DNA of 5,669 nt, from positions 1 through 5,669 of the forward strand of contig MGQK01000014.1 of the NCBI GenBank assembly GCA_001797815.1, written 5' to 3'. Source of the DNA: Deltaproteobacteria bacterium RBG_13_61_14 (GTDB lineage Bacteria > RBG-13-61-14). Of the stretch, positions 3,326 through 5,669 are shown in pieces (position 1 is the stretch's first letter; each line of letters opens with the position of its first letter). A model generated the notes under the pieces. It did not search any database, had not been told where the DNA came from, and worked only from the letters and a program-made list of their open reading frames with translations. Made by a program: the position numbers and the translations under genes.

Positions 3326-4714
3326 ATGATCGGAATCATCGGGTGGGGTGGTTACGTTCCCCGGTATCGCTTGACCGGAGAGATTTTCAAGGCGGCCTGG
3401 GGGGCCGGGGGCAAGGGCGAGCGGAGCGTGGCCAGTTACGATGAGGACGCTGTGACCCTGGGGGCGGAGGCGGCGCTCGAGGCCATCTCCGGCCATGACC
3501 CGCTCGAGGTGGACCGGCTCTACTTCGCTTCGGTGAGCGCGCCCTACCTCCAGCACCAGAACGCGGCCATCGTGGCGGCGGTGGCGGATTTGCGCCAGGA
3601 CATCTTCGCCGCGGATTTCGGCGGCTCGGTCCGCTCCAGCACCGCGGCGCTCAGGGCGGGCTTTGACGCGATCAAGGCCGACAACGCTTCCCGGGTGATG
3701 GTGGTGGCCGCGGACCTGCGCCAGGCGCTGCCCGGCGACCCTCTCGAGCGGGAGTTGGGCGACGGGGCCGCGGCCCTGCTTCTGGGCCGGGACGACCCGG
3801 TGGCGGTGTTCAAGGGCTTTTACTCCACCTCGAAAATCTTCCTGGATTACTGGCGCCGGGAGGGCGATCCCTTCATCCAGAGCGGGGACGCCAAGTTCAT
3901 CCACGACGAGGGCATCAGCCGGCACTTGCCCGAGGTGCTGGAGGACCTGCTGGAGGCGCTGGACCTGGCGCGGGGGGACATCCAGACGGTGGTGTTCTCG
4001 TCCCCCAACCTGGGGCTGCGCCGGGCACTGGAAAAGGCCCTGGGGTTCCAGCCCCAGCAATACCTGGCCGACACGCTCCAGGCCAGGATCGGAGACACCG
4101 GCTCGGCTTCGGTCTTCCTCGACCTGGGCGCGGCCTTGGCCAAGGCCAAGCCCGGAGACAAGATCCTTTTGCTCCATCACGGCTCCGGCGCGGACGCGAT
4201 CTTGCTCGAAGCCACCGAGCATATCACCCGGTTCCAGTGCTCGCTGGAGGGCCAGCTCCAGAAGGCGCGGCCGATTTCCAGTTATGAAAAGTACCTGAGC
4301 TTCCGGAAGGTCTTGCCGCAGGAGCCGTTGAACGTGTGGAGCGCGCTGCCGGTTTTGTGGCGGGAGGAGAAGCCGAATATCCGGCTTTTGGCCAAGCGGT
4401 GCGTGAAGTGCGGGGCGGTGCAGTATCCGCCGCGGCAGATCTGCTGGCAGTGCTCGGGCATGGAGATGAAGACCCAGAAGCTGAAGCGGCGGGGCAAGGT
4501 CTTCACTTTCACCCGCGACTACCTGCCCCCGAACCCGGACCCGCCCACCAACATGGTGAGCGTGGATCTGGAAGGCGGGGGCCGCTTCTACGGCCAGTTG
4601 ACCGACCTGGGCTCGGCCAAGGTGGAGATCGGGATGGAAGTGGAATTGACCTTCCGGAAGCTCCACGAAGGCGGAGGGTATAACAATTATTTCTGGAAAC
4701 TCAGGCCAGTTTAG
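3326..4714 (+). CDS. Degenerate HMG-CoA-synthase-like domain fused to DUF35 Zn-ribbon/OB-fold
   Basis: A 462-residue two-domain protein. Residues 1-300 have the archaeal-type HMG-CoA synthase (thiolase-superfamily) fold: IGIIGWGGYVPRYRL at the start, YFASVSAPY (66-74), a dimer-region helix TAALRAGFDA (106-115), VVFSSPN (222-228) and HHGSGADAILLE (284-295). Against HMGCS motifs recalled from memory, the catalytic Glu falls on Val70, the nucleophilic Cys on Val102 (beside Ser101) and the catalytic His on Ser225. The domain's only cysteine, Cys305, is far from that site, so HMGCS chemistry appears lost. Residues 358-462 are DUF35: a zinc ribbon C359-x2-C362-x10-C373-x2-C376, then an OB-fold (390-460). 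In archaea, separate DUF35 and HMGCS proteins form a channelling complex with thiolase; in toluene degraders DUF35 protein BbsA pairs with thiolase BbsB. With a thiolase gene next, this is probably a thiolase partner or acyl-CoA scaffold (inference). Database names may say HMG-CoA synthase, which would mislead. Confidence 0.85.
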   Translation: MIGIIGWGGYVPRYRLTGEIFKAAWGAGGKGERSVASYDEDAVTLGAEAALEAISGHDPLEVDRLYFASVSAPYLQHQNAAIVAAVADLRQDIFAADFGGSVRSSTAALRAGFDAIKADNASRVMVVAADLRQALPGDPLERELGDGAAALLLGRDDPVAVFKGFYSTSKIFLDYWRREGDPFIQSGDAKFIHDEGISRHLPEVLEDLLEALDLARGDIQTVVFSSPNLGLRRALEKALGFQPQQYLADTLQARIGDTGSASVFLDLGAALAKAKPGDKILLLHHGSGADAILLEATEHITRFQCSLEGQLQKARPISSYEKYLSFRKVLPQEPLNVWSALPVLWREEKPNIRLLAKRCVKCGAVQYPPRQICWQCSGMEMKTQKLKRRGKVFTFTRDYLPPNPDPPTNMVSVDLEGGGRFYGQLTDLGSAKVEIGMEVELTFRKLHEGGGYNNYFWKLRPV

Positions 4715-4723
4715 GATTTCAAA

Positions 4724-4805
4724 CACAAAGGCACAAAGACACCAGGAAGATTAAAAAATTTAAAAGATGAAGGAATTAATTTTTTCGTGTCTTTGTGTCT
4801 TTGTG
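4724..4805. repeat. Long inverted repeat of CACAAAG type between fusion and thiolase genes
   Basis: The arm at 4724-4742 (CACAAAGGCACAAAGACAC) is the reverse complement of 4787-4805 except for one G-T wobble: a 19-bp stem. Each arm is itself a near-direct repeat of a CACAAAG unit. The 44-base AT-rich interior contains a second perfect 8-bp stem (4753-4760 with 4778-4785, AAAAAATT/AATTTTTT). The element takes up most of the 113-base gap between the two genes, and its composition contrasts with the GC-rich coding DNA. Similar CACAAAGACACAAAG elements are scattered between genes in various bacterial genomes (recollection, unsearched), so this looks like a small dispersed, perhaps MITE-like, repeat. 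As RNA it would form a strong hairpin ending 8 bases before the thiolase Shine-Dalgarno and could lower or stabilise expression. Confidence 0.85.
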
Positions 4806-4813
4806 GTGAAGAA

Positions 4814-4819
4814 AAGGAG
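4814..4819 (+). promoter_or_regulatory. Shine-Dalgarno of the thiolase gene
   Basis: AAGGAG lies eight bases before the ATG at 4828. A closer ATG at 4820 is in another frame, so the spacing supports 4828. Confidence 0.7.
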
Positions 4820-4827
4820 ATGGAAAA

Positions 4828-5669
4828 ATGCCGATTGCCAATGAAGTCGCGATTATCGGTACCGGGGTGATCAAGTTCGGGGAGAATTTTCACCAGAGCT
4901 ACGCGGACATGGCCCTGGAAGCGAGCTTGCTCGCGTTTTCGGACGCCAAGGTGGAGATGAAGGACATCCAGGCCGCGTGGTTGGGGACTTATCTGCCCTT
5001 CAGTTGGGGCTATGACGGGGTGGCGGGCGCCAGCCTGGCCGAGCCGCTTAACCTTTACAACATTCCGATCACCCGGGTGTCTAATTATTGCAGCACCGGG
5101 ATGGAGGCGGTGCGGAACGCGGCGCTGGGCATTGCCGCGGGCGAATACGACCTGGTGCTGGCCGTGGGGGTGGAGAAGATGCGGGAGGTGCCGGGCCGGG
5201 GCTCCCTGGTGGCCCAGCACGTGGAGCGGGGCCATCCCCTGTATTGCAAGGGCCGGACCGCGCCCGGGATGTTCGCGCTCTTGGCCAACCGCTATTTTAA
5301 GGAATACGGGATCGGGGAGGAGACCCTGGCCAAGGTGGCGGTGAAGAACCACTACCACGGCTCGCTCAACCCCAAGGCTCACTTCCGCAAGGAGATCACC
5401 CTGGAGCAGGCGCTCCGGGCGCCTCCGGTGGCCTCGCCCTTGAAACTCTTTGACTGCTGCCCGACCACCGACGGCGCGGCCGCGGCGATCTTGTGCCCGG
5501 CGAGCAAGGCCCGGCAATACACGGACTCATATACGATCATCAAGGGCGTGGGGTTGAACGTGGCGGGCGGCTACTATTCGGCGCAGATGGACCAGAGCTT
5601 TAGCTTTACCGGGTTCAAGGCCACCCAGGGGGCGGCCGCCTCGGCTTATCGGCAGGCCGGGATCACGAA
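4828..5669 (+). CDS. SCP2-type thiolase (acetyl-CoA acetyltransferase family), 3' end outside window
   Basis: An open frame of 280 complete codons from the ATG at 4828 to the window edge, without a stop; family members are usually about 390 residues. It starts MPIANEVAIIGTGVIKFG and has the nucleophilic Cys88 in VSNYCSTGMEAV (84-95), followed by AAGEYDLVLAVGVEKM (103-118), a family-typical stretch. KNHYHGSLNPKA (173-184) and LFDCCPTTDGAAAAIL (207-222) are characteristic of SCP2/SCPx-like thiolases rather than the classical FadA type. The C-terminal catalytic His and second Cys should lie beyond the window. The enzyme would cleave a 3-ketoacyl-CoA with CoA, or run in reverse, in the cytoplasm. 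Such thiolases often need a DUF35 partner (BbsB with BbsA, Ltp2 with ChsH2, archaeal thiolase), and the preceding gene provides one. The order DUF35 then thiolase also matches bbsAB. The substrate cannot be deduced. Confidence 0.88.
   Translation, partial: MPIANEVAIIGTGVIKFGENFHQSYADMALEASLLAFSDAKVEMKDIQAAWLGTYLPFSWGYDGVAGASLAEPLNLYNIPITRVSNYCSTGMEAVRNAALGIAAGEYDLVLAVGVEKMREVPGRGSLVAQHVERGHPLYCKGRTAPGMFALLANRYFKEYGIGEETLAKVAVKNHYHGSLNPKAHFRKEITLEQALRAPPVASPLKLFDCCPTTDGAAAAILCPASKARQYTDSYTIIKGVGLNVAGGYYSAQMDQSFSFTGFKATQGAAASAYRQAGIT

Follow-up and report, generated by a model that had tools for sequence, protein, structure and literature searches.

The archaeal complex of a thiolase, an HMG-CoA synthase (HMGCS) and a DUF35 protein channels acetoacetyl-CoA to HMG-CoA; in the solved assembly (6esq), the HMGCS is active, with its Glu, Cys and His (E-C-H) in place, and DUF35 is a separate chain. 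A degradative thiolase is joined with DUF35 in the benzoylsuccinyl-CoA thiolase BbsAB (7pxp), which is not known to contain an HMGCS-like domain, and IpfD/IpfE of ibuprofen degradation are a thiolase/OB-fold pair. In the steroid side-chain hydratase/aldolase complexes ChsH1-ChsH2-Ltp2 and Shy-Sal, DUF35 shares a chain with a second domain and binds a protein of the thiolase fold (PMC12329534); the second domain is a MaoC hot-dog domain rather than an HMGCS fold, and the bound protein is an aldolase. Finally, the PhlABC acyltransferase consists of PhlA, an HMGCS fold that lacks the catalytic Cys and Glu, PhlB, a DUF35 protein, and PhlC, the thiolase-fold catalyst; catalysis is carried out by residues of PhlC only, all three subunits are needed, and the cavity of PhlA runs on into the active site of PhlC (PMC6392133). 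Krishna et al. described PhlA as an inactive member of the thiolase superfamily and also reported fusions of DUF35 with domains of that superfamily (PMC2954200).

The window analyzed here, a stretch of 5,669 nucleotides from Deltaproteobacteria bacterium RBG_13_61_14, combines the same three modules as the archaeal complex, which contains the closest solved fold. The set resembles PhlABC (5m3k, 9skh) in joining an HMGCS fold devoid of Glu, Cys and His to DUF35 and a thiolase-type subunit, active in PhlABC and probably so here, whereas PhlA and PhlB are separate chains and PhlABC is biosynthetic, performing a CoA-independent acyl transfer. Given this precedent, the window protein is best explained as PhlA and PhlB combined in a single chain that acts for a degradative thiolase, that is, as the inert, obligatory, non-catalytic partner of the adjacent SCP2-type thiolase, a reading to which we assign a probability of roughly 78%. 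The inert HMGCS-like/DUF35/thiolase arrangement is known; the fused, widespread and apparently catabolic form of it appears to be new.

An HMGCS-like domain fused to DUF35

The features of the locus are as follows.

3326..4714, + strand: fused HMGCS-like and DUF35 protein, 462 aa (ORF, AAGGAGG upstream of the ATG)
3326..4315, + strand: HMGCS-like (thiolase-fold) domain, residues 1-330, catalytic residues lost (phmmer and VIA-align to 6esq)
3533..3535, + strand: codon of Val70, position of the catalytic Glu, aligned with the E of SESHPY
3629..3631, + strand: codon of Val102, position of the catalytic Cys, aligned with the C of EFACKAGT
3998..4000, + strand: codon of Ser225, position of the catalytic His, aligned with the H of VFHQPN
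4361..4714, + strand: DUF35, zinc ribbon plus OB fold, residues 346-462 (PF12172, PF01796)
4828..5669, + strand: SCP2-type thiolase, N-terminal 280 aa, running past the window into an N gap (PF00108, 7.5e-24; PRK06157, 1.8e-82; BbsB model, 7.6e-28; motif NYCSTG)

The AAGGAGG that lies just before the ATG at 3326 overlaps the end of the upstream LUD-domain gene. The fused protein matches ACP_syn_III_C (1.9e-8), zf-ChsH2 (PF12172, 2.4e-7) and OB_ChsH2_C (PF01796, 6.6e-11), with both DUF35 domains above cutoff. The DUF35 part has the order characteristic of the family, a Cys4 zinc ribbon followed by an OB fold, and the ribbon cysteines C359, C362, C373 and C376 are 95 to 100% conserved in the family alignment; the BbsA model matches this part below cutoff (30.7 bits versus 250). 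An AlphaFold2 single-chain model (mean pLDDT, 83.5) superposes on the archaeal HMGCS with a Z score of 43.4 and a root mean square deviation (RMSD) of 1.9 Å over 320 residues (VIA-align) and on PhlA with a Z score of 42, and these two proteins are the closest solved folds. The predicted structure thus places the domain in the thiolase-superfamily HMGCS fold. The preliminary description of an HMGCS-like fold fused to DUF35 beside a thiolase agrees with the Pfam and NCBIfam matches, the 6esq alignment and the superposition of the model on the archaeal HMGCS.

The positions of the catalytic triad were set by a phmmer alignment to the 6esq HMGCS (E = 4e-38) and by a 72-row MAFFT alignment, which agree with each other. 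The motif SESHPY reads SVSAPY in the window protein, EFACKAGT reads GGSVRSST, and VFHQPN reads VFSSPN. As judged from sequence alignment, which is gap-free around these positions, Val70, Val102 and Ser225 occupy the places of Glu, Cys and His, in agreement with the alignment made by eye, in which Ser101 had been an alternative to Val102. The HMGCS-like core contains no cysteine; apart from the four zinc ligands, the only one in the protein is C305, which lies past the core. Of the fold motifs reported as kept, the PY after the Glu site and the glycines near 286-288 are indeed retained, but VVFxxPN is variable in the fused homologues.

The best curated NCBIfam model for the fused protein is nonetheless an HMG-CoA synthase, PRK04262 (NF003274; E = 2e-67), which could be taken to mean that the protein is a functional HMG-CoA synthase whose active site has been rearranged. 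However, the score of 227.6 bits lies under the model cutoff of 244 (for TIGR00748, 165.8 bits versus 353), the core has no Cys, and E, C and H are kept in all 20 true HMGCS of the set, which makes this explanation extremely improbable.

Loss of the triad and conservation of the domain across the fused family

Homologs were collected from a 60-genome sample, a 386-genome sample, genome contigs and plasmids; 69 of them were aligned with three references, and the resulting 72 rows comprise 47 fused and 22 unfused homologs in addition to the references. Full-length fused matches occur in 29 genomes of the 386-genome sample. The Glu-Cys-His set is absent from all 47 fused homologs, including one very long-branched row (L044) that has E at the Glu column without Cys and His and whose alignment there is unsure. 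Conversely, the set is complete in 20 of the 22 unfused homologs, 19 of which are accompanied by DUF35 as an ORF of its own within the stretch retrieved. Two rows of the 22 are left: L011, which is in fact a fused protein truncated where its contig ends (at 9765), and L110, an unfused PhlA-like protein; PhlA itself reads C, G and Q at the aligned triad columns.

In an unrooted tree built without the three catalytic columns, a 100/100 branch parts the unfused HMGCS and PhlA from the fused rows, the sole exception being the truncated L011, which was labeled as standing alone. Being unrooted, the tree gives no direction, either for loss of catalysis on fusion or for the reverse, and the placement of several fused rows that are long-branched or odd in composition is unsure. 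PhlA groups with the unfused HMGCS, away from the fused proteins; the window protein is proposed to work like PhlA, but the tree does not show it to be a PhlA. The PhlA-like L110 protein (4018-5085), which is unfused and reads S, G and H at the triad columns, groups with PhlA (99/93) and has a thiolase and a separate DUF35 nearby, a PhlABC-like set in another lineage.

Residue conservation was counted over 43 fused rows. Position 70 is Thr in 38/43 and T, S or N in 41/43; position 102 is Leu in 29/43 and Gln in 7/43 and is never Cys (L/Q/V/M/P/R/A across the rows); position 225 is Pro in 15/43, Tyr in 14/43 and Ser in 4/43 and is never His (P/Y/S/A/T/F/G/V). The family alignment called for in the preliminary description thus confirms that the triad is gone, whereas conservation of the window residues themselves does not hold at 102 and 225 and gives way mostly to Thr at 70. 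Residues conserved in the fused set and unlike those of catalytic HMGCS are T70, R132 (41/43), D146 (42/43) and G259 (43/43).

These patterns bear on the proposal that the HMGCS-like domain uses new residues to catalyze a reaction of another kind, with Ser101 or Thr70, for instance, as the nucleophile. Position 101 is S or T in 39/43 fused rows and S, T or C in 40/43, and together with the T/S/N at position 70 this is what such a proposal would call for. However, no conserved His or second acid stands in place of the lost ones, position 101 aligns in 6esq with the residue before the nucleophile and not with the nucleophile, and residue 70 of the window protein is Val. With no fused-specific Cys/His/Glu set and no conservation at 102 and 225, the "enzyme with different chemistry" raised earlier finds no support, and we regard it as improbable.

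That all catalytic residues are lost could also mean that the HMGCS-like half is degenerating and persists only because the DUF35 attached to it is useful. Against this, dN/dS of the HMGCS-like domain is 0.06 to 0.19 in six close pairs, about the same as that of DUF35 (one further pair, the seventh, was saturated); the fused rows carry the domain throughout its length; and 24 positions are conserved in the fused and catalytic groups alike. A decaying remnant is thus very improbable: the HMGCS-like half is under strong purifying selection and has the marks of a maintained non-catalytic domain.

The preliminary description treated the fused inert form as unusual, which does not hold, because it makes up a broad bacterial family, annotated, where annotated, as "OB-fold domain-containing protein"; nor is an inert HMGCS-like subunit unusual, PhlA with DUF35 and a thiolase having already been described (PMC6392133; PMC2954200). 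Plasmid homologs are annotated as "OB-fold domain-containing protein," "hypothetical protein" or "3-oxoacyl-ACP synthase III C-terminal domain-containing protein," and in Rhodococcus, Sphingomonas, Variovorax, Novosphingobium and Sphingobium they lie directly upstream of an "acetyl-CoA acetyltransferase." No published or solved fused HMGCS-DUF35 member was found in a literature search that covered open-license papers only, so that such a study may exist; papers on anaerobic limonene, polycyclic aromatic hydrocarbon (PAH) and ibuprofen degradation describe no fused member under HMGCS-like, OB-fold or DUF35 terms.

The source genome carries a second fused-protein/thiolase pair on the minus strand (L010:2407-5137, on G000:C71), in which the thiolase is complete; the fused paralog is 33% identical to the window protein and reads T, Q and P at the triad positions. 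The phylum of the source organism is represented by only three genomes in the collection searched and is a very poorly sampled lineage.

The putative thiolase partner and its surroundings

The window thiolase carries the nucleophile motif NYCSTG, and an assembly gap at 5670 hides its second half. Its score against the BbsB model (97.4 bits, on the truncated sequence) does not reach the cutoff of 750. The gaps in this locus (L009) are N runs at 5670-5705 and 6056-6107; comparison with the paralogous thiolase suggests that the first of them hides about 90 residues of the thiolase where only 36 N are written, so that the length given for this gap would be a mere placeholder. The fused gene and the thiolase are 113 bp apart, and this spacer (4715-4827) forms a near-perfect hairpin (-38.4 kcal/mol; z, -8.4) that is a dispersed repeat, the 23-base arm having 22 copies in the genome at ≤2 mismatches and its reversed control 0. 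The two genes appear to have been separated by the insertion of a mobile palindromic element. The spacer was considered as an argument against an operon and was dropped, because it is a dispersed palindromic repeat and spacers at the other loci are near zero.

Across the family, an SCP2-type thiolase adjoins the fused gene in 41 of 47 loci, and the Cys, HDCF and GHP motifs are present in nearly all of the adjacent thiolases. The exceptions are one locus at a contig edge (L084), the nearest relatives of the window protein (L090 and L091) and three deep-branching loci (L099 to L101); for the last five, no thiolase lies within about 6 kb, and the linkage is therefore not universal. Just upstream of the fused gene, L090 and L091 have an ORF that by eye resembles HpcH/HpaI-type aldolases. 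Distances among the HMGCS-like domains and among their thiolases correlate at r = 0.83 over 38 pairs (best of 2,000 permutations, 0.27), a correlation partly due to the shared inheritance of neighboring genes.

The window also contains two MaoC-type genes upstream, and an acyl-CoA dehydrogenase lies downstream, which suggests a catabolic, beta-oxidation-type pathway acting on an acyl-CoA; other genes intervene (cytochrome-like, MlaD-like, LUD and, by eye, a radical-SAM-like ORF), so that the substrate cannot be named. Where annotated, the adjacent thiolases of the family fall in catabolic clusters, and the clusters around several fused loci include ring-hydroxylating dioxygenases or steroid-type genes. 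In the window, 1062-1952 encodes a dihaem-type protein that contains the CxxCH haem-type motifs CVGCH and CYACH and matches cytochrome c' only below threshold (PF01322, 0.0047), and 2078-2647 encodes a short MlaD/Mce-like protein (PF02470, slightly below cutoff) as a single gene, with no other Mce transporter gene in the window.

A proposed composite assembly with one active site

The inert fused form recurs in many bacterial lineages, and in almost every case an intact thiolase is next to it; the best reading is therefore that of a conserved thiolase partner without catalytic activity. The fold, the family-wide triad loss, the purifying selection and the thiolase linkage, all established computationally, together with the PhlABC precedent favor the "pseudoenzyme scaffold or acyl-CoA-binding half of a thiolase complex" among the possibilities first listed. 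From these we infer complex formation, a shared cavity and the kind of substrate. The inert domain would form a dimer that packs on the thiolase dimer in the manner of HMGCS and PhlA, DUF35 would bridge the two, and the surfaces of all three would form one acyl-CoA cavity in which all bond making and breaking takes place at the thiolase Cys. An archaeal-type channeling assembly without its HMGCS chemistry would then become a thiolase that only cleaves (or forms) 3-oxoacyl-CoA.

The inert half may be more than a scaffold: its pocket could bind part of a bulky acyl-CoA and so set, or gate, the substrate range of the thiolase. This would refine the reading as a non-catalytic partner rather than oppose it. 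The continuity of the PhlA cavity with the PhlC active site (PMC6392133), the fused-specific conservation of T70, R132, D146 and S/T101, and the loci beside ring-hydroxylating dioxygenases or steroid-type genes are consistent with it, but the residues at 102 and 225 vary and are in many cases large, and a filled pocket is equally possible; we hold it as a tentative proposal. Equally tentatively, widespread degradative thiolases might use the fused inert HMGCS half in a composite acyl-CoA pocket, a dead domain setting the range for bulky catabolic intermediates (alicyclic, aromatic and steroid-type).

In many bacterial lineages, HMGCS-like domains that are joined to DUF35 lack the HMGCS active site, whereas the thiolase remains intact. 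This makes it a testable question why a dead enzyme domain is retained alongside a thiolase. For annotation, such genes should not be read as HMG-CoA synthases of the mevalonate pathway or as ketoacyl synthases.
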